Shown: one piece after another, positions 277-61,400 of the stretch
Layout of the letters: every line of letters begins with the position of its first letter
How positions within the stretch are numbered: the first letter of the stretch is position 1
Assembly (NCBI GenBank): GCA_026874595.1
Contig: CM049316.1
Span: 18,933,839 to 18,997,838 of the forward strand
Source of the DNA: Sipunculus nudus
Lineage: Eukaryota > Annelida > Sipuncula > Golfingiida > Sipunculidae
Direction of reading: 5' to 3'
DNA: 64,000 nt
The notes under the pieces: model-generated
What the model saw: only the letters and a program-made list of their open reading frames with translations
The model's database searches: none
What the model was told of the DNA's origin: nothing
Translations under genes and position numbers: made by a program

Positions 277-3200
277 GCCAGAATACGCCTAGCCTTTACA
301 GAAGGACGATTCGAGCAGTGGTCTGATGCCGAGGATTGTATTAAGATAATTGACAGCTTGAAGTTTAGTCAGTCGCCAATAATCAGAGATATCTTCTACG
401 CACGTAAATCCTGCAAAAGCCTCAAAGAAGCAAAAGAGTTCTTGGAAAAGAGATGTTGTGTCTGTAAAAGGTTCAGCACAGTGTCTAAGGTAAGCTTCAG
501 CGTAGTTGGTTTCGCAAGAATACTTTCATGATCCAAATAGTAATACACGCAAACACATATATTTATATATATAAATTTGATATTAAATACAGAATAATAT
601 TTTGTTGTTGGCATACACAACTAATTTATCTCTTTATAATATAGATAATATAGAGAAATTAATATAAAATAATAATAAAAAAATACTAAACCTGATATTT
701 GTATACTAGTGGAGAGTATAGAAGTAAAAGTACAATAAAGAAGTGACGTTAATATACAATATTTTTGCATTTTTACCTTTGCTTGATCAATAATTTTTCA
801 CATAAGAACACTTATCAACAGTGTGCATAGTCAAAACAATTGAAATCAATTCTAGCTACAGTCATCCGGTGCCTGCCAGTGCTTGATATGTAGGGAGTGT
901 TACATCAGATTGTTCAGTGAAACCATAGAAAATGAAGAAGCTTGGAAGTTTTGCTGCCCTGTTTGCAAGTCTCCAGACCTTCTGGAAAACAAATCTAATA
1001 CAGAAAATTATTTTGCTTCACTAGAAACACAGGTGAGATGCTTGTAACTATTACATAAACTTCCAGAATCATTGAATGAGGTCTCTCTAAAGTAACAAAA
1101 ACACTGTAATAAATGTTTAAAAGGTTTTGAACATTTATCTTTAATATAACTATTGGTATCGAACAACTCCTGCATGTTACAGATGAGGAACCTACTGGAA
1201 AGGGAAGTTTATGAAAAGCTTCAAACGAAAATCTTAAATTGGGCCTTAACAGACAAAGACAAATTTGTATGGTGCCCACAGGTAAGTGACAGCATACGTC
1301 TACCGGTCAGTATAATCAGGATTTTATTTAATGCTCTGTAATGTAGGTGGATTAACCCAAACATATTGATCATACCGTATTAATGTTTATGCTTCGTTTT
1401 GTATTATCCAAACATCCAAACACGTCTAATGGTGCAATACACATTGAAATACTTTGCCTTGCATTCTAGCTCAGCTGACTGTAAGTTTTTCTGAGCTTTA
1501 GCAATCACTCTTTGTCCGTCGTCCGACCATCCGGCCGTCTGTCCTTTAACAGGGCACAGATCGTAACCGCTGCACCTGGAATCTTCTAACTTAATCAGAG
1601 ACCATGAAATATCTCCTTGGAAACCTAGAATTAGGGCTCTGTTACCCGTATTCTTCGAGCTATGGGAATCCGAAATACACCCCACCCCCCAGAATAATGG
1701 AATATTTGATACAAAAGCTCAAGTATCTGAACAACTAATGCATTGATCAGTAAAATTCTTAGCATGGATATTGATCATGAAGTGTTTCATCAGTTTCTGC
1801 AGACTGGTGGCGTCACCTTTTTTTTATTTTCTACGATTTTTTTCTCTATTTTTAAGACCTAAGACCTTAAAGGATGCGGTCATCTGTTAATAGGGGACAA
1901 ATCGTAATGACTGGACCTAGAATTTTGTATCTTATAATGCCGGGAGGCCTATGAAAAGTCTCCTTGGAAACATAAAATTAGGCCTCTGGTTCCCAAAACC
2001 TTAGAGCTATGGGGCTTCAAATTACCCCCCAGAATAATGGAAAATTTGATACAAAAGATCAAGTATCTGAACAACTAATGCATTATCACCATAATTCTTT
2101 GCTTTGATATTGCTAATGGAATGTTTCATCAGGTTCTGCAGATTTGTGGCGCCATCTGTATTTTTTTAAATTTGTTGTTATGCATTTTTTTCTCTGTTTT
2201 TGTGACCTTTAAAGATGTAGTCATCTGTTAACGGGGCACAAATCGTAATGACAGGACCTTGAATCTTGTATCTTGACATGCAGGGAGGTCCATGAAAAGT
2301 CTCCTTGCAAACCTGAAATTAGGTCTCTGCTACCCATATTCTCCAACTTATGGGCTTATAAACACCCCCCCCCCCCCCAAATGAAAAATATGATACCAAA
2401 GCAGGGCAGAAATCATAACCATTGGATCTAGAATCTTCTTACTTGACATATTGAGAGTTGCTCAAAAGTTCTCCTCAGAACCCTGAAATTAGGTCACTGT
2501 GACCTATATTATCTGATGTACAGGCCATGTTTGAGCACCCCGGAAATAATGCAAAATACACACAAATTGTCAGATTCCTCAGGATCGGCTGGATGGATTG
2601 TCATCAAATTTGGTGTGCTTATCGGTCTTGAAGAACTTCAGCTAATATGCATGAACTATCATGCCTCCTACATTATCTTTTTAGTTCCCTGTGCAAGAAC
2701 ATGTTGTCATCATGCCAGTCGGCTGAGCGTCATGACCCATGAGTCACTTGTTACTTCTCCGGGTCAGGGTTGGGGCAAGTTCATTTGAATGTACCTAGTC
2801 ATATGTACAGGTACTTGTGAGATGGTAAGGGACAGGTCAAGTAATTGGATACAGGTAAAGATTACCTCTTTTATAGAATTCCGAGGTAGAGGTACATTTA
2901 CTTTAAAAAAGTACCTGGAAACGGGTAAAGACAATGTCTTTCATTGAGTACCTAGGCACTGGTAAAGGCACATTAGAAAGTAACTGGGTAAAGCTAACTG
3001 ATTTCAGAGTGTACCTAGGTACAATTACATTTAATTCAGAAAGTACCTGGGCAAAGGTACATATAGTGTTAGTTCAAACACATTTGAACTTATGGTAATT
3101 ACATACATTTCAATTAGATTGTAAATAATAAGTTAATAATATAATGGTAGAATACATCATTAAAAAGTATTAAACAATCGCTCCCTGTGTCTTCATAAAA

Positions 3201-6200
3201 TATGAGACATGATTTACAAATAAACAGGACATATACGAAGTTGATGAATTAAAAAAAAATATTAAAAAGTAAATACAGTGGAGCGCCGTTAATCCGAACA
3301 CCGGTCCGCAAAACCGTTCATCCGTAATTAAAACTGGAGAACCGAAATTATGGCCGTTTATCCGTAATTTTGAAAATCTGGAAATATAAAAATGATATTT
3401 ATTCAATAGGAAGAACTGATAATGGCTCGTGTTTTTACTCCCGGTCCTGACTAATTATGAATGAATCACCGGTTCGTTTTTCCAGGTGTGACAACGCCTA
3501 ATTACAACAAAGTTGTACAACAAATTGTACTCATTTGAGCAGTTAAATGGTGCAGGCAAATCTATCTTCTTTATATAAGCTATACCATGACACGCTTGTT
3601 CATTCCCAATTTAGCAAATCTTCACCAACATTTATTCATTCTGTATCAGTAAAAAGGTATTTATCACACATTATTCCGTTCTGGTCCCGTTTATTTTAAC
3701 TATGAAAGCTAACCGAAGTCCCTTACACCGTACCATCATTAAGTAGTAATACCGGGATGACAACATCGATGAAACGATTTTATTTAACAGATGACCGTTC
3801 ATCCGAACGTTCGTTTATCTGATCAAACCCGTGTCCCCCGAGACGTTCGGATGAACGGCGCTCCACTGTATAAATAATATAACACATTTCCGTATTTAAA
3901 TATAAATATTGTGTATATATGTGTGTTGGAAGTAAGAATAAACATGATAATTGAAGGAAATAACTCTGAGGAATGTTTGAGTCATGCATGAGCGACTGAT
4001 TGTGGTACGTAAAATGGGGACGGTTTTCTGTTATATATGGTCTTGCTTTTTGGCTGATGTGAAGGGTACCATTTGGCGAATTTCTTCAGGGATATATTAA
4101 ATGATTTCTTAAATGTTCACTCTTCACCAGTGTCATGTTTATAGAAGACGGCAAGTATCTACATGGGGCATGTAAGCAACCCATCCCCAAACTTTCATGA
4201 CTGCTAGTTAATATATGCTGATAATGTCAAAATAAACTTTCTGTGTGGGGATGGGTGTAAACTGACGTGCCTCCAGGCAAGCTGACCTACTCAACTTTGA
4301 AGGCTGCATTGTATTTACCTCCTGGGTTAGGTAACTGCCCTGACAGTAGCGACAACTTGGCACACGTAATTGACTGAAACCTGATGTTCATATAAAATAT
4401 TATACATATGATACACCTGGAGTATAATATAGCTGGAATAGATACTCGAGTTCAAGGCAAAGCTACCGGAACCAGATACTTAATATTCATAACAACCAGG
4501 TAAGGTTTAGGTACAGGTATTCTTAAATGTGTAGACAGGTACAGGTGTAAGGAACGGGCCCCAACCCTGCTTCTGGTAATATCTGATATCATTCTATTGG
4601 CAGGTAAATGGATGAGAATGTTATCCATACTTATATATATTAATATTACGAATGTGTTGCATTTTGCGTTATCAATAACGTTTACCATTGTCAAGAAAAT
4701 GACGAATTCAATAACACTATACTAATATATATTGCAGTGTGAAGGAGGCGTTTTTGTAGCTGCTGTTGAGGACAACAAGAAATGTCCAAAATGCGATAAT
4801 TTCCTTGAGGCTGTTCAAAGTCAGTTAAAACCCTGTGTTATTTGTGGTGATGAGCTCCTAATGAAGAGCGTAAGGGAGGTTTTTTTATTCTAATATAACT
4901 TAACAGCATCCATAAATATATTTCGAATTAAACCTGCAATTGCATTTTTACATTTTTAAATAGTAGCGGGAATATTTTAGTTTTAGTGTTCTAATACACA
5001 GTTCAAGAACCGAAGGTTGTAAATTGTTTTATAAGTTGGGTTTGACGTCGCTACTTCTAATATAATCATCTGTATATTTGTATTTGCAAAGCTAATACGA
5101 CGGCCTCGAGCAAGGTTTACATAATATACGCATTTATTAAATGTTCATTTTAAGATCGGTCAAATATATTCTGGAATATTTTTGCAGCTGCAAACGCTAC
5201 CATGTTGTCAGTGTCTCTTCTGTGTTGGATGCTTCAAGGAATATTTCACGCATCAAGCAACTACGTCATACGCCAGTAAATTCAACTGCCCTAGCTGTGG
5301 ACTGCCAGACCTCAATGACCTGAATGAAGCGGAAAATCATTTCTGGTTTCTTGAGGCAAAGGTATTTTATCATAATACCGTTGTTTGACTCTTCCATTTG
5401 AAAATGAAATCTCCCATTTATCAGTTTATCACGTCAACATTTATGTGAATAAATGACGTTACAAATAAATACCGTGCATTTCAGCTGAAGGACATACTTG
5501 ACGAAGATATTCACAGAAAGATAATTGATAAAATTAGAGATTTTTGCCTGCAGAAGAACACTTTGTTCACATGGTGCTCTCACGTGAGTACTTCAATACC
5601 AAGATACATTATTATCTCAGATGTGTACCAAGCAAATGCCTCATTTTTATTGGATTCTTTTATGCTTGATGTAGACACGATGATTTTGTTATTTTGATAG
5701 TAAGACCGAACATGTCAAATTGTTATGGCTTTGTGTTTAAGGGTCATAGCATAATATAGGTTTGGATTGCAAGGCACGATATATATTTCACGTGCATTTG
5801 CAGATGTATTCTGCATTAGACAAAACTCACCCGTAATAGGTATCTATAATCTTATGCAAGATATAGTTGCAAATCATTGATTTCACAAAGATATATTGAA
5901 CTATGATGTTACAGTGCCACAATGGATTTATTGCCTTTGCCCATGGGTATAAAGCACAGTGTCCCCATTGCCGCGAGTGGACATGCATGGGATGCCGCAT
6001 TAAGGTTAGTCATTAAATACGTTGCGCACGGGAAAATATGTCATAACCCCTCATATCCACTTCACAAATCTCATTGAGATGTTTTTGCGTTTTCCAGTGT
6101 TTTTAATAATTTCACATAATTGTTTGATATGAAAAAGTACAGAAACAAAGTAAAATGTCCTAGCTTGAACAGGGTTCAAAGTCCGCTCGTCTTCAGTCGT

Positions 6201-8151
6201 TAACCCTGACCTGGCGCTGGCTAAACGGAGTGATAGTTACCGTTAAACTCGTCGATTGTTTGTTTTTAAGGAACGTATGCCGCTACATCAGTTTTATTAG
6301 AAACCATCATATTCTCATAGACGTTACCTGAAGGTTTCATTAAGGTACATGTCACGTCGTCCATATTCCCAGTTAAGTACTGGGTGATAGTGGCTCTATT
6401 TTACTCTTTAGTGGACCGACGATCACGACGGAGTATCGTGCGAAGAATACAAAATGAACAAAGAAATACAAGACGCAAAAGGAGCTCTCCAAGTCCTATC
6501 CCTTAACAACATATGTAAGTTATTTGATTATTTTACTTCTCTTACTTAAACATTCGGCTATCTACTGTGCGATATGTACTGAAAAAAAATGGCTACACAT
6601 TTGATGAAACTAAACAATTTGATTAAACTAAACCTGAGGTTATAGAGTAATTTGATTTTACGGTCTGTGGTCCTTAGTGACTGCTTATATACAAAAGTCC
6701 AACAGACTGTACCAATCAAACCCTTATGAAATAAACTCTTGAAGTTGATAGTGATGGGTGGTTTTCGACAGATTGCCCGGCTGAAAGATGTAACGCAGTT
6801 TTTATTGTGGACCGTGGTGGCTGTAAACATCTGACATGCCCGATGTGCAAACACGAGTTCTGTGAAGGATGTCGCATGCCTTTCAAAAAAGGAGAGGTAC
6901 AAAACATTTTACGTAAAGGAACCTTTATATTGTTTACATAATTTACATTCATAGAAACACCATATTTTTTAGTATGATAAAATCGCAGTTATATGAAAGA
7001 ATAATAGACCATACAGAACCTAAACAAGCCAGTCTTTCGTATGTGTTCAGTGATGATCCAACGGCAATATTAAAATTTTCTGTTTATTTTTGGTCTACAG
7101 CAATGCGGACGTTTTGAAGATTGTCATTCTCAAGGATTCCATGCACACCATCCGAGAAATTGCATCTATTATCTCCGCGACCAGGGAGAAGTGAAAGACT
7201 TGGAAGGCCTATTAGAAGTAAACTAATATTTTTATATTTTTAGAATTACAATGCCATCACACTACCCGGTCACTGTATACGATGTGACTTATGATAGCCT
7301 TAGGAAATACTAGAATATATATTAGCACAACAGATTTGTAGCCATGTTAAGAGCGAAAGCAATGCGTCCTTGCCCATCTTCCTTCCATTCATCGGTCCTC
7401 CCGGAAGGCCATTAACAATGTAACCATTGCGTATTGATAATATCAGACTAAGACTGGTGGTACCATCTCCATTTTGTAATAATTGTGTAATTTTACTTTT
7501 ATTTTATAAAACGCCAAATTAAAGAAATTCTGCTATTTTCTCAGCTGTCACTCCACAATCAAAGTATTTTTCTGAAGCATAGTGTTCTCATTGACCATAG
7601 ATGGTCAAAAAAGCTTAATAAGACTGTTGGTTCCACGTGTGTGTTTACTTTAGCTATGAAGTTGTCAAGTGTCAACAGTTGTGTCAGTTTCTCAGCAGTG
7701 GCTCAACTGGAAATATTAATTTTGTTGAGTCTTTTTTTTTCAGTTTCCCACATGTTTACTCGTATTTTTATATCACCAAATTGCAGTTGTGGCATTTTTT
7801 ATTGTTGGCCCATGTACTCTTCTGGCACTTGCTGTGTGCAATGAACAGGAACAAGACTAATGATGCCGCTATTATTTGCTTTATAAACTTTGAGTAATCA
7901 TTCAGACAAAAGGATTAATTCTCCAGTATTTCATGGATTGAATGAGTTGAAATGTGGTATCAAATGTTTGACGGCCGTTTCTAAAGTATGACACCAGAGG
8001 TGCCATCTAAAACAACGTATTTAATATTTGACGGGTTTATTAATATTTTTAAAATTAAAAAAAAAATTCAAGCCGCTCGATTATTTCCCATTAGCCCAGT
8101 TATCGTATCTTTTCCTCCGGTAATAAAGTAATGGTGCTTTAAATATATATA

Positions 8152-8205
<54 letters not shown>

Positions 8206-9621
8206 CGAACAGTTTCAATTTGTTAACTGATCAATAAGTGGCTCACTCCGATATTTTTGTCCACCTGTGCTTCTACGATTTACTTTCAGCTTCATCTAGT
8301 TTAGATTAAAGGAAAAGCAATTTTCACGAGTGAAGAAATTATATGAAAAATTTATATTATGATTATATGAAAGTCATTTGAAATGTTCTCTACAACCCTG
8401 CCATCTGATTAAGTTTGAGTGATGTCAAAGAAACCAGGCACAGTTTTGTCGCTCAATGTGCCATTATGAGGGAATTCATTCTCCAATTTTTGTGCTTTAT
8501 ATTCCCTTTGTTTTTTTTTTCTGATCTCGAATCTATACTGAATGGTTTATTTTCATATTTCATTTCCATTAATTACAATTAGTGAAGTATAGTTTTTTTG
8601 GTCCGGTTACAAATTTTCTGACGACCCTGGTTCGATTCCCGGCGTGGCTATAAGAGTGGTCTGTAGGGCCCGTGTTTCTCCGGTTTCTCCACGTTTAAAC
8701 ACTACCGAACGCCAATATGTGCCATGGAGATTGCCTATCATTAGACTTCAAAAACTATCTGTGAGATCTATGTAAAATAAATGAAAATTAACGCCCTACC
8801 ATGACTCATTTATCCTCTTATATCAGACTCATGCTGCTTTTGATGTATCTGTCTGATAAATAGTCATCCTGTTTGTAGAGACACGGGGTTGACTTCGAGA
8901 AGGAAGCAGCATATAGACACAGGAAATGCCAGATCCCTGAAGTGGTAGACGCTAAAGAGGGTAAAGGGAATGTGGTAACAAAAGAAAAACTGTGTGGAAA
9001 GAAAACACACAAGGGCCACGGAGATGTATGCACGTGCGTTCACATTTTCATTTCCCACACTCAATTTTTCATCACAAAAACTGTTGCGTGATTGTAACGG
9101 ATGATAAAAGTAGCTTGAATATGAGCGCACGTTTTTTAAATTATTAAATGTTCCGTTAACAGTTTGTTTAGTGAGGCTGAACAAATTATATGTTGACCAT
9201 TTTCTTATCTTCTCAGACTTTTTAATCTACAGGTTCCATTACAAAGAATACTTGATCCGGGAGCTGAATCGTCATAAGATTGATCCTGTGGATATGATGA
9301 CAGAAATGGAAATGAGGGCAGTTATAGCAAGAGAGAGGATCGATCTTCCAGCTCCAACCGCTTGTAATTACATGAATACTCTAAAAGAGGTCTGTTTACA
9401 CATGCATATATATATTCCTGTTATTTTATTATGTGAACACCAGTTGTCAAGATTAATTTATTAATTCATGTTACTGCTGTCCCCGAGATTCAAAGAATTC
9501 CCCAATAACTAGAGCTTGGAAATTTAATTTAAAAATTTTGGAAAAAACTATAATTCCCCCTTTGGTTTTCTGTTTTCAGTACATCGAAGTCAACATCCCA
9601 GTTTATCAGAGGCAGAAATGA
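277..9621 (+). CDS. RNF31-like: HOIP/RNF31-like RBR E3 ubiquitin ligase with duplicated RING1 (gene A, 5' partial)
   Basis: Thirteen exons: 277-489, 856-1032, 1183-1281, 4738-4869, 5188-5361, 5485-5583, 5915-6004, 6412-6514, 6772-6896, 7101-7217, 8879-9033, 9233-9389 and 9580-9621 (TGA). All have AG/GT borders and join in one open frame of about 560 residues. Domains in order: end of a UBA-like helical region; RING1a (CCVC, CQC, CREC, CPVC); half IBR (WCPQC, CPKC); RING1b (CVIC, CQC, CVGC, CPSC); full IBR (WCSHC, CPHC, CMGC); RING2 with catalytic Cys in RGGCKHLTC (Cys codon 6822-6824) and the His two residues on; the HOIP-type zinc-binding insert with HAHHPRNC; and the linear chain determining domain starting HYKEYLIRELNRHKIDP. 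The LDD and HHPRNC insert point to HOIP rather than parkin or ARIH. HOIP joins ubiquitin through Met1. The N-terminal part lies upstream of the window. The doubled RING1 is unlike human HOIP. Confidence 0.88.
1468..2750 (+). repeat. AGCT-family dispersed repeat, copy 1 (in intron 3 of gene A)
   Basis: Starts with AGCTCAGCTGACTGTAAG and a CCGTC-rich tract. It then runs through about three to four diverged internal units, each beginning near 'gggcacaaatcgtaa' (about 1551, 1892, 2234 and 2403). It ends near 'gctgagcgtcatgaccca' at 2721-2740. The same start, internal units and end recur at 10924, 16028 and 30297, so this is a dispersed element of about 1.3 kb. No coding capacity is seen; the ORFs in it are chance. 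Confidence 0.75.
2765..4569. mobile_element. Non-autonomous hAT-like element
   Basis: The ends are inverted copies of CAGGGTTGGGGC (2765-2776 and reverse complement 4558-4569). Further in, both ends carry AGGTAC-rich sequence. The flanking 8-mers CTCCGGGT (2757-2764) and CTTCTGGT (4570-4577) match at 6 of 8 bases, as expected for an old hAT target duplication. No transposase ORF is present. It lies in intron 3 of gene A and contains the MITE at 3276-3868. Confidence 0.6.
3276..3868. mobile_element. Pogo/Tigger-like MITE with TA target duplication
   Basis: The terminal inverted repeats begin CAGTGGAGCGCCGTT and continue with ATCCGAAC, about 24 bp with one mismatch. They are flanked by TA on both sides (3274-3275, 3869-3870). 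The length of 593 bp without a transposase frame fits a miniature element mobilised by a Tc1/mariner-superfamily enzyme. It is nested inside the hAT-like element. Confidence 0.8.
8143..8202. repeat. (TA)n microsatellite
   Basis: Nearly pure AT dinucleotide run of about 60 bp in intron 10 of gene A. Confidence 0.95.
8612..8790 (+). mobile_element. tRNA-derived SINE (in intron 10 of gene A)
   Basis: A pol III B box (GTTCGATTC, 8630-8638) is followed by 'ggcccgtgtttctccggtt' and a T/A-rich tail, the layout of tRNA-headed SINEs. The A box is not clear, so the head is diverged. The rest of intron 10 (7218-8611) contains no recognisable gene. Confidence 0.5.
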
Positions 9622-10730: not shown

Positions 10731-10736
10731 AATAAA
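10731..10736 (+). terminator. Candidate polyadenylation signal for gene A
   Basis: AATAAA lies about 1.1 kb after the TGA at 9619-9621. The stretch 9622-10730 has no recognisable gene. It includes a possible 3'-UTR splice donor at about 9640 (GATGGAG then GTAAGT). The hexamer is common by chance in AT-rich DNA, so this is only a candidate. Confidence 0.3.
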
Positions 10737-19735: not shown

Positions 19736-22333
19736 TAAATAGATGTGATCTTTATATATTAAACATAATCTTGTACATATTTGGTGCTTTCAGTCCAATA
19801 TGTTTAATTATGTGGCCAATCAAAGACAAGATGTTCAAATGCTTGTTTGGGAAAGATTCGGATGGGATCTTTTGGCTTCACTGCATTTGGGCAATTAATT
19901 TAAAAAATTGCTTTAATTGTATAAAAGAGGCACATACCAGGAGTTTTCTGGAAGCCATATAGGAAATGTATAATGCAAGTTAAAACACTAAAGGATTCAT
20001 TGGTGATGTGCCATGAATCATGTGAGATGTTGAACATTCCATTTTATTGGTTATTATTTTAGCCCTATTTAACACCAAATGATAGTAGCGGTCTGTCATT
20101 CTTAACAACAGAATCAACGGTATTTCCATGATAGTGGGTATCAATTAATACAGTTAAATAATAGTGTGAAACTAAACATACCATTTAAGCTGCAGCCAAG
20201 CATAAGTGGGGGCCACCTATCATTTAGGCCACATTGAAAAATGGATTTTATCGATTTGGCTCAGGGAAGTGTAGTTTATAATTTACGTACTCATATAACT
20301 CGCATTACTTAAATTTGGCTAATACACAAAGGCACAACACATTTTATTAGCAGAAATACATTTCTGCAATAAGTAAAATTTCATAACGCTACCATTTGAA
20401 AAAAAATCACTTGGTACTCATATAATTCTAATTAATAGCAAGGAATATTTAACCTTCATATAAAAGCGACAGTGTTCATATGTTCGGCATTGGGTAGGGA
20501 GAAGTGGGAAGGATAATTTTGACTCATTTAAACTATGTCAGGTTACGAAACCTGTATTACATACTGGTATACCGATAACAGAATCAATATTTTATACCTG
20601 GTACTCAAAGTGTGGAGAGCAAACGTAACATATTATACAAAAACAAATATAATCTCCACATGAATGGTAAGCGAAAGTTATAATTCCTAAAAGGTAATTT
20701 AAATAAATTAATGTTGAAATCATTTTCATTTTCATAATGATGTGTCATTTATGATATAAAAGTGAAAGTATTATATTTACTGTTTTATCCAGGAAAGTGA
20801 AATGATACATTTTGACTTTAAAAACTCAGTCCAAACCAGATGGCATTGCTTGCACTTTATCTTAAAAATAATGCTGAAACATTCGGAAATGGAATTTTCA
20901 GAGTTATTTTGTAACAGACGCATGATATCTGCATATGCATTGCACACACATAACCTGTTCATCCTCAAAGTCTCGAAGGGGTAGATGAGGTGAGCGCCAT
21001 TTGTCTGAGAATAGTCTGAGAAGAGCCTGACTTTGAGGGTTATCTTTATCATGAGTAGCCTATAGCTGGCGGGATATAGGTCACTGTGACCTAATGTTGA
21101 GTTTCAAAGATTTCAAAGGACCCTCTGGATGAAGTCAGATGATTCTAAGTTTAATGATTATTATATTAACCTTATTATGGGACGGATAACTAGACAGCCC
21201 TTTGGACAATTGTAAAATAATACTAATTTCAAAAGTATCCTCTGTGCTCTCAACCTACTATATCAATGTAACTTTGTCAGGAACCATATTAAAAGAAATA
21301 TTTGGTCAAGGAGATCAATGGACACAGACTAGATTCCGTAGAATAAGAGGAGATGATCATGGTGATTGACAGGGTAACAAGGACATTCGACACAGGGGAC
21401 AATAAAGATGAGACATTGATAGTGGGAAGACAGGATATGTGTTCATGTAACACAACAATTTAGATTGAAAAAAAATGCCCCTTCACCATAGAACCGACCG
21501 GCGTTTCCTGCTGGCTAACATGGCTTAGGGACCGGTAAGCATGGTGAAGAATGAGGAGAATTTAATATCCCTTGATATGGTCGCCTGGGCCACTACTCTA
21601 TCATAGTCTCTTGGTTCTCGAGCACTCATATACAACCATTATTTTGGAACATTCCTTGTAACGACAACAAAACAAAGTCTCTAACTTTCCCTAGAAGACA
21701 CAGTTGCAACTTTATATTTCGTTATTTTCGAGCATATTGCCCATAGAGACACAAAACGATTGCGGACAGAGAGTTTGTAATGCAATCTGACGGTTTCAAG
21801 AATGGTGTGTAATATGCTTATAGCTGTACAAAGGAGACAGCCCTGGAGGACCGTCATCATATCCACCCTGGTCGGCCACACGGTAGGCCACAGCACAGGC
21901 TGGGCTTATAGACTGTTAATAAAATAAACTATTTTATGGATCCGTTCGGATTTATGTGTTCACGAGGAAGGGAACAGAGCGTTGATGTGAGGGACTTACA
22001 CCTTACCCACCATCTGTTCGTGCAACGAACTCTTCAAAATTACATACAGTAAGGGTCATTCAGTCGCCCAAATTTGGACAACATAACCAACTAAACTCTT
22101 ATATAATAGATCAGATTATAAACACGTTTATATAGATTAGAAATACTATTGAGATAATATCAATGACCTAAGGGCATTCATGTAATGAAGCACTATTTGT
22201 AGGATAGGGAATCGGGGATTTGCAACGTGTTATACAGTTAAATAATTCGTTTATACTATTAATATACTATTTCAGTTATGTTACAATTTTAAAATACATA
22301 ATATATATTTGCGAAACTGACATTACATCAATT
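19736..22333. other. Intergenic DNA without recognisable features
   Basis: Only short ORFs without known motifs or plausible splice context are present. I see no RBR-type exon, RNA gene or clear transposon end in this stretch. Confidence 0.5.
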
Positions 22334-26340: not shown

Positions 26341-27097
26341 GGAAGTTTCAACCGATCCATTTACATAATGCAATCAGAACATGTACTTTAAATAAACTAA
26401 TGATTAGAACATGAATTGTCCATGATAGTTTTGAAAAAAAAAGGCTGAGCAGATATAGTGTTTTATTTTAGTGGACAGATGAGCAAGAGGGAATATCATG
26501 TGAGGAATACACGTTGAACAAGGAAACACAGGAAGGTAAAGGGGTCTTCCAGGTCCTGAATAAAGTTTGTACGTTGTGTGGTATCTTGACTTCTTGGACT
26601 TAGCATCTTATCCACTTGTCAGTAAATAATGTCACAACTGCTGTTAATTATGTTATGTGGAAAACAAAGTATTCAACATGAAAGAAGTTGTCAGGACCTG
26701 AGTTCATTTTAACAATTCATTTTCTTTTTGATATAGAGGATACATTATTCTTAAATCGTTGAATTATTTTCTCTGTCTTTCTTTCTAACTATCTCTAGAT
26801 CCCATGCATTACTAGGGATACTTGATTTGGGAGGTGAATCGTCACAATATTGATCCAGTATATATCATGACAGTACAGAATATGAGGGTTAAAGTAGGAG
26901 AAGACATTGCTTGCCTTACTCTCACTGACAATTACAGAGATACTCAGATTTAGGTATTTTCGTATATATAAATCACAAGTCTAATTAGACAGGTCAGTTT
27001 TATCCAATGTGAATACTGATGTGAATGCTTTTGATTCACTAAAGGGGGATCGTAATGGACAGATGAACTTATTAGACAAGTGGTCTTTTAGACAGGG

Positions 27098-27145
<48 letters not shown>

Positions 27146-27381
27146 ATACACCTGATATTTATCTGGTTTGTCCGTTAAAAGCTCAAAAAACAATTTCATG
27201 TTATTCACAACATTCATGGATGCTTTTAAAAATTCCATGATTATTTGTCATTAATCTGTTTGCAAAAATAAAAAAAAATGAAAGGTAAACTGACTGTAGT
27301 GCATTTGTTATATTTCAGTTTTCCAAGCTGAACATTCCAATTTATCAGAGGAATCAGCGGCGTCCTGTGCCCAACGTCTAA
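26041..27381 (+). pseudogene. psi-1: internally deleted HOIP-like gene
   Basis: Remnants of a gene like B or A. The first exon (about 26056-26110) aligns with B exon 1, but the ATG is TTG (26086-26088) and the acceptor CAG is AAG. The IBR-RING2 linker exon (26472-26568) is intact, reading WTDEQEGISCEEY. The LDD exon (26799 to about 26952) keeps YLIWEVNRHNIDPV but has an in-frame TAG at 26813-26815, where gene A has Lys. The final exon (27319-27381) reads FSKLNIPIYQRNQRR and ends in TAA. RING1a, RING1b, IBR, the catalytic RING2 exon and the HHPRNC exon are missing; in gene B the matching stretch spans more than 7 kb. It cannot encode a ligase. Confidence 0.85.
27101..27143. repeat. (AG)n microsatellite
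   Basis: Pure AG dinucleotide run of about 43 bp between the last two exon remnants of psi-1. Confidence 0.95.
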
Positions 27382-32700: not shown

Positions 32701-33002
32701 CAGGTATTATTGGATTTTAATTAAACATTCTCATCGACATGCAATTGATAAATGCAAAACAACAGGTACAGATAAAATGGTCATTTTGAAGTTGTGTGTG
32801 TTTGGTACATCCGAATATGACATTATAAGGGCTATTTGAAAAGTAATTGCAATAATAATGATCAGTATATTATACATTTGTTCAATGATGACCACACCTG
32901 TTTTCATTAAAACAGAAGACGCAAAGGAGTCCACCAAGGCAACAGGATTGCGCTGGCTGCAAACGCTCTTTTCCCATCGGCACAGTAAGTTCATTTAAAC
33001 CT

Positions 33003-33081
<79 letters not shown>

Positions 33082-36000
33082 CATGAGTACACACATAAGT
33101 CGGTTCACTCCGTAGGGGATTCGAACCAATGACGGTGTCCTTTGCTATAAGCTAAGCTGACGAAGACCCCCAACCCATATGTGGATAATCACACTATTAT
33201 AGGAAGAAAAGGAATTGATGTAAGAGTATTATCTAATACATCTTACGCACACCTAGCATGCAGCAAAGAGAAATAATGGCCATTTATGGTGTGCGGCATA
33301 TCTCATATAGAGAGATGCATGAATAGGGCATGCTGGTTCCTTGAATCAAGAAAATTATAGACTTTATATGCCTTGATGTATAGAGAAAGAACATGAATAC
33401 ACTGAAAAATCGGTTCCCACCGTTTGGGAATCAAACCTACGATCTACCGATTGCCGGTGCATTAATTTGCCGGTCGTCATTTCGCAGGTTCCTAGAAGAA
33501 TGTTTCGGTAAAATTCTCATCACCTAATGATAATTTGAAGGAAACCACAAATTAAGAAAATACTCTTGTAATAAGATAGATACACCATTTATATAGCCAT
33601 ACATCCATATAATATGTAAAGTAATTTTATGCCTGTCATTTCAGATGATGAAATATGACTATTGCAGTTGTATTGCATGCTGGAACTGCATCACGGAGCG
33701 GTATAGAGCAATGATTAAAAACAAACATGCCTGGGAATTCTGCTGCCCTTTTTGCCGAAACCCGGACCTGTTGGAAAATAAGTCACAGACAGAAGAATTC
33801 TTCAAAATAGTACAACATCAGGTATTGTATCAATAAAATGCTGCCTCTTTTAACATGCCCTTGATTGATAAATTCCCACCCGCACAAAATGCACACGCGT
33901 TTCAATGCGATCTGAATACACAACTGTTCTTTACTGATTCAGTATCATTAATATATGCTGGTCCCGTTGAAAAATTAATTCAAATCTATAATTAATACTA
34001 CAGATCCCGCACCTACTATCACAGCATGAATCAAATGACCTTAAAAAGAAAATCCGTGAATGGACGGACAAAAAAAGGAAGATGACTTTCTATGGTGTCC
34101 AAGCGTAAGTGTCTTTTTTATTGTAAAAATGGGTTTTAAAGTTTATCATGGAGTGCGGATACCGTGACGACAATTCGTTTCTGTGTAAGAGGATTTATAA
34201 TGCGCATTAGTGTAGCTGGCAAGTATATTTTCAATTTTCCAGTGTGAAAGAGGTCTCTTTGTTAACGAACTTGGAGACGAAATGAAATGTACGAATTGTG
34301 ACCAGGTTCCTCCCCATTTGCAAAAACAATTAAAAGAGTGCTGCATCTGCAGTGAGAAATACAAGATAGACAAGGTTAGTCAGGAACACTTACTTTACAT
34401 TAACCTTCTTTTGTGCAAGGTGTGTTAAGGATATGAAATATTTTTATTACTATAAGATTCTATCTTCTATCATAAGATGACAAAATAACAGAAGAAGGTT
34501 CCTCTTTTCCTTTTAGATTTTTTTTTTTAAATTGCACATTTGTCTTGTTTTCAGATACAGCTTTTATATCACTGTCAATGCCACACTTGTACGGACTGTT
34601 TCAAAGCATATTTCAAACAAGCCATAAAAGGACAGAGCCTTGCAGGCTTTCGATGTCCCCAGTGCAGAGGGCCAGATTTATTGGATGCAGCCGTGGCCGA
34701 GGAGCACTTTTGGTTTCTTGAGGCAATGGTACGTTTTGTTATTTTTCGCAGACAATACCAGTCACGATATCCTTTGCCTAGTCTGTCAATAGTGATAAAA
34801 TCATGAGATTGTTACTTGCTAACTCGTCACTTTGAAATGGATTTTAAACTTTGTGGTGAGACTGAAGCCATAAGACTGTGATTGTATTTTTCTGTGGCCC
34901 TTCTATTCAATGCATGTTTTAATCCACCGACATACCTTATAAACAAAAGGTTCATTAATAAATAACGCAAAGATACGGATTTCATTAGCTAATATGTATT
35001 ACCATTTGTGTGCATTCATATGGCAGTTAGAGGACATGGTCTCGCCTGAGGAACAGCACATTTTATCCATGAAGATCCGCGATTGGTTTCTACAGAAGAA
35101 CGAAAAATTCATCTGGTATTCCAACCCGCAGGTTTGATTTGATGCTATAACCCTGAGCATACCAATAGTGGTTTTAATTTACATAATAACGCATAAAAGC
35201 TTGTGTATCCCCTCAACCAAGTAGTAAAACCAGAACACCGTAATTGCCGAACCTTTGGTTGGCAAATAACGCACATTTTCCCCTGCTCACTAATGGGGAT
35301 CGGCAATATTTCTTTGGTTCCTTCAGAGGAATATAATTTCATATACTTAATAAAAAATTGCGCAATTCACAAATCAAATTACCCGGCAGTGCTATATTAA
35401 ATAGCCTATTCTTGAATATAAGAATACCAAAACCTCTTAAATGTCTTATTGTAAAATTTCGCAGTGTGAACACGGTTTTATTTACGAAGGGACGTGAAAG
35501 CCACTTGTCCAAAGTGCAAGAGAAAAACGTGTCCCCTCTGCAAGTCAACGGTAAGTAGCAACATTTCTTTGTAGATTAAAAGTAGCTTGGTCATTTTAGA
35601 ACGATGAACCGCTTCACTTTTGATTTATGTGCCAATACGAATACAGGAACTCTCGGCCCGGAGACACTCGGCCCAAGCCACTCTCGGCCCCAGAGACACT
35701 CGGCCCCAGAGACACTCGGCCCCTGAGCATGGGGACCTAGCGACACTCGGCCCTGATGTAGATGACGTTAAGCATTTAGAATTATAACTATGCAAAAAAG
35801 GTTTTCAAGTAATACCAAGTGTCAAGTCTGAATGTGTCCAACTCTGAGGTGGGAGGAACTTACGATCCCATTTTTAAATAAAGGTCAGTAAACAGGTCCA
35901 ATGGTAATCAGGTCACCTTGCTACCATGGCTTAACAAATTAATTTTATACATACACATATTTTTTCACAACTTACTATAAAATTAAGAAAAAGTTTGATA

Positions 36001-39000
36001 ATTTAAAATTAGGAGTTAATGGTTTGAGCTAACCGTAAAGGTAAACGTTTCTCTCCGCAGGGTTTGGCAGCTTTTTCCCACAAGCATATGACCTTAAATA
36101 TGTCCAAAATCCTGTTCTGTTCTAAATGCTTACCTAAACTTTTATTTATAAATTCAAAATTTGAGATTTTAATTTATTAACTTAGTCAAACGGAAGTAAA
36201 ACATACAAATAAGATTTTTTTCAGAGGAAAAATCACACTAAAGTTTTGCTGTCCTGTCTTATACAGTACGAAAATTAACACATAATGCTATCGGATACAT
36301 TAAACATAAAAATATTTTGTAACACTTCAAGAACAATTTGGAGATCAAAATGATGTAACGGTTTAACTTTAGCCAGACATTTAACTAAAATTTCATTGAA
36401 ATGGACAAGGGCGACTCAATATAACTACGGGAACAATTGTGTTAACGGGTTCCCCGGGGCTTGAATCGGACCTGTGGGCCGAGTGTCTCTGGGACCAACC
36501 GACGGTCTTGGGGCCGAGTGTCGCTAGGTCCGAATGCTCAGGGGCCGACTGTCTCTGGGACCGAGTGTCTCTGGGGCCGAGAGTCGCTTGGGCCGGGTGT
36601 CTATGGGCCGAGTGTCTCTGGGGCCGAGGGTTCCTGTTACCGCCAATATATTACAGATTTAGCTTATTTTGAAATGTTCAACATTATGTCAGAGAGTCTC
36701 AAGATTAAGTTTACAAATAATATATTGTTACTATGAAGTTATCACTTGAACAAGTGTATTCTTGGTCATTGTGGTTGCCTTCTTTTTTGCAATTGCTTCA
36801 AATTCGCGATATTCACGGTTGCTCTGTGACCTCGAAATTAAAACAACGCAGTTCTGAATGCCAAGAGCATTAATTTCAGAAGCTGCCAATAAGTGGCACA
36901 TGACTGAAAAAATGTCAGTTATATTTAAAAATTAATAAGCCATAAAAAATACACGCTTGGACTAATTCCTGTTGGCTTTTGTATCAATGAATATAATAAT
37001 GGCTCATCAGCGATAAATAATTTAGACTCTAATTTCACTTTTTATTGATTAAATATATATGTTTTAGTGGGAAGGCCACGAGAATAGGACCTGTGCTCAG
37101 TTCAAAGTATACCAGGAACTTCTGTCAGCTAAAGGAGCACTGGAGGTGTTAAGTCATTGTAAAATATGTAAGTTAGACCTTGGTGTCATTCAAATGCATT
37201 CATATTTATTTGCACAGTTGATCAAACATAACATATATTGATGTTATATTGATAATAATAATAAAATTAATTTGGTAAGTATTATGGAGTATAATCTCAT
37301 TTTATCTTAGAAATGTTTCTTCGGTTCTCATGAAAATATAGATTGATAAGGAATGACGACTGACAGGGCACTGATTAGGTTAAGAAAGGCTAATGTTCCG
37401 CAGGACGTTGGGAAATGAATGAGTATATCATTATGAGTGGGAAACAGAAAATGGGCAACATGGTATGTTTTTTTTCAGATTGTCCAAAATGTAAAACAGT
37501 CTTTGCCTTAGAACGCGGAGGATGTCAGCATCTCACGTGCCGTCAGTGTAAATACGAATTCTGCGAAGGTTGTGGACAGCATTTTGGGGTAAAGATTATA
37601 GAGCAAACAAGCGCATGTAGTACTATTATTGATACCGATAGCTGTGTAATTCAAAAGGCTAATGAGAGTTTGCAACCACATAAGGACGTATTAGTTCGGT
37701 TAATCAACAATCGTTGTACCGATGGTTGTATATTGTCAGTGAATTGGTTGAAAATTATTTGCTAGTGCATTATTGCAGCTTTGCGAGAAATACGAAGACT
37801 GCACACTGAAAGGTCTACATGCACATCACCCGAGGAACTGCAGCTATTACCTGCGTGATTCAAGATATGACTCTGACCGACTGGAAAGTTTGCTCGAAGT
37901 AAGTGGATATGTAAGGTATCTATTGGCTGACGATATATTTAAGTTTCATAGTCAGGTTGTATAACGGAAATTTTATCAACAGCTACATATACGACAAGGA
38001 GAGCATCATTTAATGTTAACCATGCGCTCCGAAGGATGTATTAAGTAGGCTCAGGCTTTATCAGGAACTATAGAAAATGATTTATTTTCTGTATAGAGGG
38101 CTGCTAGTTTCTTGCATACAGACAGCTCCCACGAAAACGTCATAAAAGACCAGGATAAGATCATCTGTATATTTTCAGGACCATGGGATAGATTTTGACA
38201 CAACCACAGAAGGTCAACAGGACACATGTCCCGTAGAAGTAGTTTCAGAAGCTTCAAGTTCTTTAAACTTCATGAAATATCCATGTGGTGAGCCTGTCGA
38301 AGCAAATCAAGCGGGCGTTTGTAGGTAAGGTTTATCAGTTTTTTAGGTTATAAATAGACACATAGAAGAGTTGTATATACAGTTATCTTGATGGCTATCC
38401 ATTTTTTCAAAGAAAAGTAACCTTTAATTAGACAAGCCGTCCTCCTGGTAGGGAACCATTGTCACTCTTATTCGCGTTTCAATTGGCACCGCCCAAATCA
38501 GATAATGCTCATTTTCCTCGCGCTGAAATAGAAACAGGGTAATATTCACAAGTGTGTGATAGTCGATTGACTATTGTCTATGTAATACATGAGAGGTCAG
38601 GATTCATTTACTGCAGAGCAAAAGCCTGCATATTCAGTAAACTCGATACAAACAGATACGATAATAGGAAACAGATCAACAAAATGTACTTTACAGGTAG
38701 TAAGTGTCGAAAGATATCTAACTTCAGAGTCTTTAATTTTCTGGCCAGCATTATGTTAAAACAAATTTCTGACAATAGGAAACATTACAAAGAGTACCTG
38801 ATCAAGGAGATCAACCGACACAGACTGGACCCACTTGAGATAATGGACGAGTCTGAGATGCTTATGGTAATCGATAGAGGGCACAACGGACGTCCGACTC
38901 AGAAAGACAGGGAGACGTTGATGCAGGTCAGAAGAAAAACAAATATAATACTTTTATCTCCAGGGCTTGCTATTTATGTTTTAATCTGTAGTCTACAATT

Positions 39001-39291
39001 CACGAATGGAACTCTTCTTCATGTTCCATTTATTCCTAAAGCAGTTACAATCTGTAACATAATCTGTCATCTTCTCTCGAGTATGACGAAACCAAAAGGC
39101 TTCATATTCAATGCAAAACTGAAATTACATCCAAGAGAGCAAACTAGGCATGGTTTGTTTTTTATTTCTTTAATGTTTGTTAATAATACAAAATATTTCC
39201 TGTACCAAATGGTCCAAAGGCATCTTCCAGTGTTTCTCTCTCTCTCTTCCAGTTCATCAAAGATAACCTGGAAATCTACACAGACATGTAA
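29584..39291 (+). CDS. Short HOIP/RNF31-like RBR ligase paralog with two frame breaks (gene B)
   Basis: Sixteen coding exons: 29584-29607 (ATG), 29802-29891, 32358-32471, 32916-32984, 33645-33821, 34004-34104, 34243-34374, 34555-34728, 35027-35131, 35465-35550, 37068-37167, 37479-37588, 37779-37898, 38179-38324, 38779-38926 and 39253-39291 (TAA). Phases match gene A exon for exon from RING1a onward. The protein starts with two short similar segments ([15 protein letters not shown] and [15 protein letters not shown]). Then come RING1a (CAGC, CSC, CWNC, CPFC), half IBR, RING1b (CCIC, CQC, CTDC, CPQC), IBR, RING2 ([10 protein letters not shown] keeps the catalytic Cys and His), the HAHHPRNC insert and the LDD ([17 protein letters not shown]). 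It has no PUB, NZF or UBA. One base is missing near 34070-34076 (A run) and one near 35488-35492 (G run), and the first IBR Cys is Tyr (WYSNPQ). It is either a recent pseudogene or an intact gene with assembly indels. Confidence 0.72.
30297..31575 (+). repeat. AGCT-family dispersed repeat, copy 4 (in intron 2 of gene B)
   Basis: Starts AGCTCAGTTGACTGTAAGTC, forming a hairpin with ATCTGAGCT. It has internal units near 30389, 30735, 31070 and 31235, and ends at 'aacgtcataacccatgggtc'. This is the most complete uninterrupted copy in the window, 1.28 kb. Confidence 0.8.
33003..33076. repeat. Compound (TA)n(GA)n microsatellite
   Basis: TA run to 33050, then a GA run to 33076, in the intron between coding exons 4 and 5 of gene B. 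The same TA-then-GA order recurs at 50888-51012. Confidence 0.95.
35644..36636. mobile_element. Foldback-type element with repeat-built inverted arms
   Basis: Outer ends are CAGGAACTCTCGGCC and its near reverse complement GGCCGAGGGTTCCTG. Each arm (about 35644-35757 and 36468-36636) is built from several copies of GAGACACTCGGCCCC or its complement, with a shared 'gacctagcgacactcggcc' segment. The two arms align in inverted orientation, with one extra unit in the right arm. The middle of about 700 bp is AT-rich and has no transposase. It sits in the intron between coding exons 10 and 11 of gene B. A target duplication is not clear. Confidence 0.75.
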
Positions 39292-45363: not shown

Positions 45364-46338
45364 ATGTCCCCAGTTCGAGGGAATAGGCAAAGCCCAAAAA
45401 CTGAAGATGGAAGAGAATGTTTTGCCAAATTTGCCAAAGAAGCTTTCCAATTGGGCATGTAAGTAGAAAAAAAACATTACACAATAAGAAGGATGGTGTC
45501 TTTTAAATAATCGAAATGATAAGTAATTTGACAATGTGGAAACTTTGAATTGTCAAAAATAAAAGTCTCATATAAGATGCATCTTTCGCATTTGCAGTTT
45601 GAATCAAAAAAGTTATTTAATACAAATGTATTACATTTTCAGATGCAACGGATTTTGAACCAAGTATCTTATAGCATGATGCTAGATAGATATTCAGATG
45701 GATCTAATGTGAAGACAAATATATCTGGTGTACAACTGTGAAAGGTTGAACAACTTATAAATCATAAATTAAAGATATAAAAATATGATTTTAGCGCAGA
45801 TGTGATGTGTTGGTTTTCTTAATATTTCAGTGTGAAAACTTTCCACAGAACATTAGGAAACAATTGAAAATGTGCAGCATATGTAACGGAGAATTCAATT
45901 CTGTGGCTATCAAAGAGAAAAGAGCACGTAATTTCAATTGTCCAATCTGCAAGAAGCCAGAGCTGCCTAGAGGTATCGATGCCGCGAACTATTTTATAGT
46001 TCTTGAGATGACAGTAAGAATATAATATTGGGTACATGATTTCAGTGGTTACAATTGTTCATGTCCTTGTTATCCTAAGGCGACAAGAAAATGAGAACGA
46101 ACACGGCTCGCACAGTAGTAAATTTAATAAATGAGAAAAAAGATTCTGATCACTCATAATAAAAATCACAAACAAAATGTATAAGGAAATTTTAATTGAT
46201 ACCAGATCAGTTTAACACATCTTTCTTTTTTGGCCTTTAGCTGACGGCCATGCTTTCCAGAGAACTACTTGATATATTTAATACAAAAATAAGGGATATG
46301 CGTCTGCAAAGTAATACATATTCCTGTGGTGCTCAAAT
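45364..46338 (+). pseudogene. psi-C: fragment of a HOIP-like RBR gene
   Basis: Four pieces. 45364-45458 starts MSPVRGNRQSPKTEDG and its ECFAKFAKEAF resembles the N-terminal segments of gene B. 45643-45738 is a helix exon, ending with a DKYIWC-like match to gene A's DKFVWC in a different frame, preceded by TAA. 45831-46013 is one open exon fusing the end of the half-IBR exon (QLKMCSIC) to the back of RING1b (FNCPICKKPEL), with the middle zinc ligands and the intron lost. 46241-46338 resembles the next helix exon (TKIRDMRLQSNTYS), with a frame break before WCS. No RING1a middle, full IBR, RING2 or LDD exon is found downstream. It cannot encode an active ligase. Confidence 0.75.
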
Positions 46339-58431: not shown

Positions 58432-61400
58432 ATGGCAGGATGGCAGCAGATATCTGTAAGTTAAACATTTAACAATAACAATGTAAGAAGAAATGGTATT
58501 TAGGTCCATTCATAACCTTTCAAAGTTGACCCCTGTAACTCTCAAACCCAGAGCGTTTCAAGAATATCCTGTGATTCTGCAATAGATCTGTGTGAAACAT
58601 GTATCATGCATTTAATGGACACAAATACACTTTTTCCGTACCTACTCTATAATTTAGGGAGTACGCAGAACTGGCAAATTTTCAGGTATATGCTTTTGTC
58701 TGTTCATTGAACGTGATATGTGGTATAATCCCTCCTTGTTTTCACTGTGTGTTAAACAAAACCTGTAAACACTAAACCATTTTGATCTACCCACTATACG
58801 CTAATAATCGCCTATCTGTCCGTATGTAAACAGGCTGCTCGTAACATACGAGGGAACATTAAACAAACACTCCTGGAAGGACAAGAGCCGGATGAGGAAG
58901 CATATGTCAAGTACCAGGAGGTTACTTTAAGCCTCAAAGAGAAATACAAACAAATTAAACTGGATGAACTCATCCACAACAACGCCAGGGTACTATTACA
59001 TATTATTTCCCACAATGTAATATATCGTTATAATTTCGTAACAGCTGAGATTCACTTTAATAAATTCCTAAGGGAATCCTATTCCGCTACAGGGAAAATT
59101 TGTAATAATAAAACAAGGTCATGCATGCCATATAGTTACGACCAGACTTGTTCATTATGCAGTACCCCTACAAATCGTGCGACCTTGCGAGTAGGAAGAA
59201 ATAAGTTAATTAAAGAGTTTAATTATGTGATGGAAATATTGATATTATTAACCTTGAAGTCATTTACACAGATAAGGCTTCAAGGTATTTAAAGTAAACA
59301 GAATTTTTCAATTGTTCCTTTTCATAGGATGAACAGTGGCACAGTGGCATCGATAAAGGTTTTGAAACTTTGGGAAGATACGGTAAAACTCTTCTTAGCC
59401 CGGCGGATCATCGACCAGATGAATGGCGAGTCATCCGATTCTCCAACCCCAAATACAGGAGTGATCTTCAGAGTGTAAAGGTGGGTGCTCCATTTTCCTC
59501 CGTTTGTCCGCTTTTTATATAATTTGTAGCTGAAAATAAATTGTTTGTAAATTAAGGGCGCAAATGTTGGAGTGAACTGTGTCAATTTGACTCTTATATT
59601 ACAGGCGTGTTTCTTGATAATGAGTTCTGTTTTTGCCTGTCTTACCTTCGTGTATAATCGTTACCAATTTCAGAGTGGGATCTTTAGGTCGGGGAATATT
59701 GCATTAGATTGCATAACTTTGTGATACATAGTAGAGTATCACTTCAAAGACCAACTCAGAGATGAGTTACGTGTCAGTGGGATGGTCGGGATCCCGAGGC
59801 CGGACTTTCATTACTTATATCATTTTAAAATACATCTTTCCATACAGAGGCGAATGATATTAATGATACTATCTGCAGGGTAGCCGTGACATTCTGAAGC
59901 AGTTTGGCTACATTCACGAAGATGAAGACGGAATCTATTTCCCTCAGGAAGGTGAACCAGACAGGGATAAGGTGGCCGCTGTACTGGTCGAAATACTTTT
60001 AGCAAAATCAGAATTAGCTACATTTATAGAAGGAAGACACAAGCAGCACGAAACGTTTTGCCAGCTCTTGCCAAAAGAATACAGGTAAATTTAAGATAAG
60101 GTCACCGTACTAAAGTAAATACATGTAGCTAATGAAAATAAATCAGAACCTTATTTTATATAAAATGAACAGGAATTTTTACATGTATTTCTATCCTTTA
60201 TAACTTTTTCTTTCAGACCAAAGCTAGATCGTAAAGGTTTTCGTAAAATTCCAAGCGGGAAGTCACCGGGGGTGAGCAGGAAACCGGCCAAACCCAACTC
60301 AGCGGTGGCAGGTCCAGTAATGCAAGAAAGCGCAACACAGCCTTTCAGGGAATTATACACAACGCCGACAGAGCAGATGCCTGTTCAAACGGCAACAACA
60401 GGGACGGCGCAGATTAACGCGGCACAGCAAAGGTCTTTGGGGGAGATTCAGACGCAGCAAACCGATCAAGCAGCAATAACAGCGATGCCTCTGCAACAGA
60501 ACCCAACGACGCCGGAAGCTGTCGCAGAACAGGTTTTGCAAGAGGGTCAACTAGCAATCACACCTACGTCCCATCCCAGGGAGAACCTTGCCATAAACCA
60601 ACCTAGTCCAGGGCAAGCATGGGAGCAGGCTGTGGCTTATCAAATTCAGAGACAACAAATGGGTCAAACACCTTCAATCGGCCAAACTATGCCTGGACAA
60701 TATCAAACGCCACACATGTCAGCGTTGCCTGTCCAAGATCCACTAATGACTCCATCGGTAATTCCGCCTGGGCAGTTGCTACAGGTGTCATCAGCACATA
60801 CGGAGGATCCTAGTCACGTGACAAATATGGATTACACTGGTTCTACCTGGGTCCAATCACAACCAATTGAGAGGGTTGGTATATCCTAATAAATTTGTAT
60901 ATTAAGTTAACCACATAAGTATATGCACATACGGTCTTTATGAACCGTCATCTTTAGATATAGCAACGTTAACTTTTTTGTTATTGAATGTTTTTATTCA
61001 GATTGTCAATGCTGGCACAGTAAAAATACAGAAGAAAGCAGTAAACAAGCATTCATCTGAGTTCAATATGATTACCATGAATAAAAAGAAATGAAAGATT
61101 CGTGAAAAAAACTTGCGTAGTAATTCCGTTTTGAAGAAATACTAAGCTTCTTTAATCCCTGTTTGGTATAGATCCCTGATTAAATATAGCATTAAAGGCT
61201 CATGATAATTACGGGTGAGTAATATGAGCGTATTATAATGTTAATAGGTGGACGACACGAGTCCAAAGGCTACAGGCATTACTGGACCAGAATATCAGAA
61301 TCTGAGAAGAGATGCACATGAAGACAGGTAGGAACCTTACAGACGATTTGACTGTGTATTTCAAAAGGTGATAAATTGCTTTTATATTTCCTTCAATTAA

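Follow-up and report, generated by a model that had tools for sequence, protein, structure and literature searches.

A HOIP-like ubiquitin ligase gene with two predicted RING1 domains and its tandem relatives in Sipunculus nudus

Here we describe a group of HOIP-like RBR ligase genes of Sipunculus nudus, located in and around a stretch of 64,000 nucleotides (nt) which we call the window (assembly GCA_026874595.1, contig CM049316.1, positions 18,933,839-18,997,838, plus strand). Gene coordinates below are window positions unless given in Mb or with the prefix C11 or C16. The window contains an open gene (A), a frame-broken relative (B) and a remnant (C), and two further open genes (D and E) lie outside it. 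Gene A carries the RING1 domain twice, as RING1a and RING1b, and judging from the sequence we regard this two-RING1, HOIP-type architecture as almost certainly real. Copies were searched for with translated queries in the window and in the species' own 1.43-Gb genome, and copy counts are lower bounds.

Gene A is located on the plus strand and spans 277-9621 together with two in-frame exons just 5' of the window. It reads, in order, the HOIP UBA pair, RING1a, a linker, the first IBR zinc site, RING1b, a linker, a full IBR, RING2, the LDD and the stop codon. Its traced exons, all on the plus strand, are:

-797..-534 and -266..-15 (window coordinates), plus strand: two upstream exons, in frame
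277..489, plus strand: e1, end of the UBA-to-RING1 region and first CxxC of RING1a; 213 nt (the same in D and E), phase 0, ag/gt
856..1032, plus strand: e2, remaining RING1a (CQC, CREC, CPVC) and DLLENKSNT motif; acceptor attctag; 177 nt, as in D and E
1183..1281, plus strand: e3, RING1-IBR linker of the first unit and first Cys of the half IBR (WCPQ, then C across the exon border); ag/gt
4738..4869, plus strand: e4, fused exon with three half-IBR ligands (C..CPKC) and the first CxxC of RING1b (CVIC); 132 nt
5188..5361, plus strand: e5, remaining RING1b; 174 nt in A, D, E and B
5485..5583, plus strand: e6, RING1b-IBR linker and first IBR Cys (WCSH); ag/gt
5915..6004, plus strand: e7, IBR, covering what is left of its first zinc site plus the leading Cys pair of the second
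6412..6514, plus strand: e8, end of IBR and IBR-RING2 helix; 103 nt, equal in D and E
6772..6896, plus strand: e9, RING2 with the catalytic Cys (RGGCKH), aligning with RGGCMH of human RNF31
7101..7217, plus strand: e10, start of LDD (HAHHPRNC)
8879..9033, plus strand: LDD exon 2, PF18091 match
9233..9389, plus strand: LDD exon 3
9580..9621, plus strand: last coding exon; TGA at 9619-9621, AATAAA at 10731

Every internal exon border is ag/gt and no stop interrupts the frame of the traced exons, the spliced product of which counts 732 residues (the 5' end of the gene, with any PUB or NZF part, lies beyond the trace). Introns are in phase 0 from the first traced exon to e7, and not after e8 nor after the second LDD exon. 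A preliminary description of this DNA had read RING1a, half IBR, RING1b, full IBR, RING2 and LDD in one frame, which the exons bear out; the span it gave, 277-6896, lies inside the gene but covers only its middle. The HOIP-like character claimed there agrees with the Pfam matches, namely UBA_HOIP (PF16678; E 2.1e-26, 93.1 bits against a cut-off of 22.4) and the HOIP C-terminal domain, that is, the LDD (PF18091; E 3.7e-17, residues 607-698 of the spliced protein), together with IBR-type zinc modules. Over RING1b of genes A and D Pfam gave only zf-RING_2, below threshold. No PUB domain was matched near gene A in the profile search, and sub-threshold PUB matches were located on the strand of the respective gene at C11:19.075 Mb (5' of gene E; E 0.04) and 16.631 Mb (5' of a single-RING1 copy at 16.61 Mb; E 0.08).

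The RING1 zinc pattern used, CxxC-x14-CxC-x2-C-x2-C-x18/19-CxxC, is present twice in gene A and likewise in D and E. Between the two RING1s of gene A stand a linker exon and the motif WCxxC-x14-CxxC, the first of the two IBR zinc sites. The term 'half IBR' used for it earlier is right in that a partial IBR separates the RING1s, but the segment is better described as a complete first zinc site, kept in 3/3 open copies (A, D, E). RING1a, the linker and this half IBR are referred to below as unit a, and exons e2-e4 as the cassette. Taken alone, unit a of gene A matched human RNF31 (chain 5edv, phmmer) over residues 6-128 with E 1.8e-16, and unit a of gene D over the same residues with E 2.2e-20; both matches are end to end, beginning at the first ligands of RING1 and closing with the first IBR zinc site. 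The best stretch of gene A against this chain opens at RING1b and reaches the beginning of the LDD (query 192-432, E 4.2e-45). The earlier claim of two complete RING1s is thus sustained by the repeated pattern and by the separate match of unit a. Chance spacing of cysteines was ruled out, because unit a matches RNF31 alone and because D and E repeat the doubled pattern together with the exon lengths and the phases.

Five loci were found to contain the fused exon e4, three of them (A, B, C) inside the window and two (D, E) beyond it, all within ~112 kb (from e1 of A to e1 of E). The two open genes beyond the window are:

C11:19.014-19.019 Mb: gene D, fused exon at 19.0148 Mb; open over the ten exons compared
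C11:19.033-19.046 Mb, minus strand: gene E, fused exon at 19.0452 Mb; open over the ten exons compared

The lengths of e1-e10 in A, D and E are 213, 177, 96-99, 132, 174, 99-105, 87-90, 103, 110-125 and 114-120 nt, those of e1, e4, e5 and e8 being equal in all three. The catalytic motif is RGGCKH in A and D and RGGCQH in E. UBA_HOIP matches were located on the correct strand 5' of D (with one TAG inside the matched stretch) and 5' of E, and further LDD (PF18091) matches at B, D and E.

The tandem array in this region includes broken copies (B, C and fragments), which gives some ground for reading the double layout as two neighbouring genes, or a decaying copy, mistaken for one, with RING1a left over from a truncated gene in front of a normal gene. 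The structure of e4 argues against it: this single exon of 132 nt carries parts of both units in A, D, E and B, and in an ungapped alignment of the four the distance from the half IBR to RING1b is 13 residues. As e4 holds ligands of both, unit a and unit b belong to one gene, and two separate genes were ruled out on this ground. Moreover, three copies are open over e1-e10, the profile search gave no UBA_HOIP match between the two RING1 units, and amino-acid change in unit a is limited. We therefore consider such a misreading highly improbable.

Gene B and remnant C consist of the following parts.

32916..32984, plus strand: B, first CxxC of RING1a (CAGC)
33645..33821, plus strand: B e2, remaining RING1a; 177 nt, in frame
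34004..34104, plus strand: B e3; 101 nt, out of frame
34243..34374, plus strand: B e4, fused half IBR and start of RING1b; 132 nt, in frame
34555..34728, plus strand: B e5, remaining RING1b; 174 nt
35027..35131, plus strand: B e6, linker, first IBR Cys changed to Tyr (IWYSNPQ)
35465..35550, plus strand: B e7, IBR; 86 nt, out of frame
37068..39291, plus strand: B, exons for the IBR-RING2 helix, RING2 and LDD, the last of these exons read by eye
45831..46013, plus strand: C, remnant of a double-RING1 copy in which fused exon and RING1b have merged, each with a partial deletion

Gene B had been presented as having the same layout as gene A with both RINGs complete. The latter holds for the ligands, with eight of eight cysteines kept in each RING (16/16), but e3 and e7 are off frame and an IBR Cys is lost, and as assembled B was ruled out as a second intact copy. 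An assembly error may lie behind these defects. Since B is frame-broken and lacks a ligand, it lends weak support and D and E strong support; the earlier statement that ligands are kept in more than one paralog is upheld with A, D and E, rather than B, as witnesses. A gene B intron contains an inverted pair of short 'ctcggcccc' tandem repeats, seen by eye about 0.8 kb apart (~35640-35760 and 36460-36640), which looks like a small mobile element.

Sequence divergence was compared among A, D and E as proportions of nonsynonymous (pN) and synonymous (pS) differences in pooled units, with pS saturated and hence no dN/dS ratio computable. The cassette shows 36-42% identity, pN 0.35-0.41 and pS 0.84-0.97, and e5-e6 show 44-51% identity, pN 0.35-0.40 and pS 0.85-0.96. 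Amino-acid change is restrained about equally in both units. The zinc ligands of unit a are complete in the three genes (24/24 in RING1a, 12/12 in the half IBR). Purifying selection on both RING1 units would be the best account of these patterns. Tandem copies in the array do decay, and unit a could on that analogy be a neutral relic, translated and without function; its full set of ligands at 36-42% identity, with pS saturated, speaks against this, and we give the relic very little credence.

Seven HOIP-like copies with a single RING1 were found, at C11:16.61, 18.707, 19.098, 19.133, 19.180 and 66.41 Mb and at C16:27.57 Mb. They were compared on the stretches read, several being covered in part only, and the exon carrying the first ligand pair was not located in the copies at C11:19.133 and 19.180 Mb. 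Their exon order where read is e1, RING1, linker, IBR exon, and in the copies at 16.61 and 18.707 Mb and on C16 the borders of these exons are as in gene A where read. Among three copies checked for the RING1 pattern, those at 16.61 Mb and on C16 match and that at 18.707 Mb is short of one ligand. The e2-e4 cassette was found neither in the stretches read of the seven copies nor elsewhere by the genome-wide translated search. In the 18.707-Mb copy, 5' of which a UBA_HOIP match is located, CVDD replaces a RING1 Cys pair (C11:18707621-18707794).

In the double genes e4 starts where the IBR exon starts and stops where e1 ends. Its head resembles IBR exons in 4/4 copies, with 0-3 of 1000 Cys-preserving shuffles as good, and its tail resembles e1 ends clearly in B (0/1000) and E (6/1000). 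We infer that the double RING1 arose by a single event. This would have been one in-frame internal tandem duplication with breakpoints in the IBR exon e7 and in e1, the exon ending with the first RING1 ligands; it would have fused the acceptor of e7 with the donor of e1 to give e4, and the first unit would have lost its second IBR half, its RING2 and its LDD. Later tandem gene duplication would have spread the double layout over ~112 kb, with B and C subsequently decaying. Two further features accompany the shared exon. B and E are sisters in the trees of RING1a (80/85), RING1b (85/89) and RING2/LDD (91/91), which is what joint inheritance of the units in one gene would produce. In addition, the motif [DN]LLEN[KR][ST]xT follows the last RING1a ligand in 4/4 copies and is absent in the four RING1b and seven single RING1s aligned.

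The exon lengths also suggest a splice switch, in which e2-e4 would be either skipped, giving an ordinary single-RING1 HOIP, or included, giving the double form, perhaps inactive, autoinhibited or differently regulated. The three exons sum to 408, 405 and 408 nt in A, D and E, each is of phase 0, and joining e1 to e5 yields a canonical RING1 pattern and no premature stop in all three genes. Such frame neutrality, however, follows automatically from a duplication between phase-0 introns and is by itself no sign of regulation. Restrained amino-acid change in e2-e4, together with the zinc ligands kept there in A, D and E, speaks against constant skipping. A switch of this kind appears to us rather unlikely.

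Unit a holds a RING1, the RING1-IBR helix and the first IBR half, and no catalytic part. RING1 domains of RBR ligases contact the E2 through a conserved hydrophobic residue and the central helix (PMC9834252; for HHARI, PMC5462532), and in these ligases the RING1-IBR helix carries the allosteric activating ubiquitin, whose tail lies on an IBR strand (PMC9834252). The motif C-x-[V/I/L]-C is present in 6/6 RING1s of A, D and E, and Gly occupies the hydrophobic position in RING1a of B. By our own placement, this residue would correspond to the E2 contact at HOIL-1 V284 and HHARI I188 (PMC9834252 and PMC5462532). Because the parts that bind E2 and the activating ubiquitin are kept and the catalytic parts are gone, unit a would most likely serve as a second module docking or sensing ubiquitin-loaded E2 (E2~Ub) or ubiquitin, an assignment made tentatively and at somewhat less than an even chance. 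RING1b, IBR, RING2 and LDD would then form the catalytic core, acting as HOIP does: E2~Ub would be bound on RING1b, the thioester formed on the RING2 Cys and the Met1 linkage made by the LDD. The product of the double-RING1 genes would be linear chains. Docking or sensing by unit a could raise the local supply or gate the core.

Several results weigh against a duplicated docking unit of single origin under constraint. The profile search of the spliced protein, which recovered UBA_HOIP and LDD, gave no Pfam RING family over RING1a of gene A, although phmmer does match it to RNF31. The resemblance of the e4 tail to e1 ends is weak in D (43/1000 shuffles as good) and A (51/1000). Finite dN/dS ratios were obtained only for e6 between A and D (0.18) and e7 between D and E (0.36), both outside unit a, pS being saturated in the pooled units. 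The RING1a domains of A, B, D and E cluster together with 91/92 support, below the 95% mark of the program, and the RING1b copies fall among single RING1s and form no clade. In the RING2/LDD tree gene A lies, with weak support, near two single-RING1 copies (F and G) and not with D and E, which makes exchange among tandem copies likely; given that A is not grouped with D and E, the single origin relies on the common e4 and the RING1a clade. As regards docking, the second E2 contact, the central helix of RING1, varies among the copies by eye. The position of HOIP E809, which, counting back from C885, we take to lie between the Cys pairs of the first IBR zinc site, belongs to a stretch retained in unit a. 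In an ungapped comparison, however, only D has Glu at this position of unit a, where A has Ala and both E and B have Asn, and none of the full IBRs of A, D and E has Glu there. As this position varies in both units, E809 was set aside as an uninformative marker of a working allosteric site.

A scaffold for dimers or partners, or an autoinhibitory domain, either of them without E2 binding, is a further role to be considered for RING1a, which carries a conserved motif of its own and clusters separately from RING1b. In parkin an extra zinc domain in front of RING1 can block RING2, which provides a precedent. However, parkin RING0 is not a copy of RING1, and RING1a keeps the E2-binding features C-x-[V/I]-C and CPxC in A, D and E, and we assign this role a low probability. 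For the docking reading as a whole, a duplicated docking unit joined to a HOIP core by one event followed by tandem spread, we see the chances as about evenly balanced. A fuller version, with two working docking units feeding one RING2, switched by the frame-neutral cassette and derived from a single duplication in a since diversified array, is quite improbable; if true, it would amount to a splice-controlled second 'loading bay', or to a linear-ubiquitin sensor gating chain making.

Other parts of the region contain additional HOIP-like material. At C11:19176582-19176704 a HOIP-like RING2 has GGD for the catalytic GGC and lacks the following His, and this paralog, beside active-looking ones, is likely inactive by its sequence. 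Nine LDD matches were located at C11:56.995-57.390 Mb, where RBR queries gave one weak match; at C11:57384001-57390000, the only stretch of this array read, a RING2-like exon has RGIKRH where the catalytic RGGC-H is expected, and the enzyme looks catalytically dead. Window positions 26472-26561, 26807-26905, 27319-27357 and 21293-21373 hold HOIP-like fragments (IBR-RING2 helix exon, LDD pieces), some with stops, and no RING exon was matched near those at 21293-21373 and 26472-27357. The HOIP-like array shows gene birth and death. Two long Pro/Gln-rich open stretches without a Pfam match lie on the plus strand at 60164-60886 and 62252-63589, the latter ending about 10 kb 5' of the UBA_HOIP match near gene D, and might be the N-terminal part of that gene. 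Finally, a repeat that by eye starts about gctcagctgactgtaagtc and continues with tttgtccgtcgtccg was noticed in or beside HOIP-like genes near ~1465, 10925, 16030 and 30300; it is a possible substrate for unequal crossing-over.

A maintained HOIP with a non-catalytic second RING1 unit would separate docking and activation from catalysis, and a double-RING1 HOIP would offer a direct test of E2~Ub loading and of allosteric ubiquitin control of linear-chain synthesis. In this genome the LUBAC ligase has radiated into a tandem family of new architecture, some members of which look catalytically dead. The usual description of an RBR ligase has one RING1, one IBR and one RING2, and the LUBAC ligase HOIP is single in human. 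The molluscan orthologue in Aplysia (LOC101849805) is reported as one gene (PMC9334734). No RBR with two RING1 domains was found in the literature on doubled RING1, doubled RBR and mollusc HOIP, mostly open-access and consisting of titles and abstract beginnings, nor did the passages covered of a paper on the RBR supradomain show a doubled RING1. Parkin has an extra zinc domain, RING0, before the RING1 of its RBR; that domain is not a copy of RING1, while unit a of Sipunculus matches RNF31 from RING1 to the first IBR zinc site. As in RBR E3 ligases, the predicted single chain of A, D and E combines RING1 with a RING2 that holds the putative thioester Cys. Gene A resembles human HOIP/RNF31, the catalytic subunit of LUBAC, in the UBA_HOIP pair, RING1-IBR-RING2, RGGC-H with the His two residues after the catalytic Cys, and an LDD with HHPR-C, and departs from the family in not having a single RING1. 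By their UBA, RBR and LDD the double-RING1 genes encode HOIP-family proteins, with a layout that would be unusual for the family: human HOIP possesses a single RING1, in front of which genes A, D and E add a further RING1, a linker and a first IBR zinc site.

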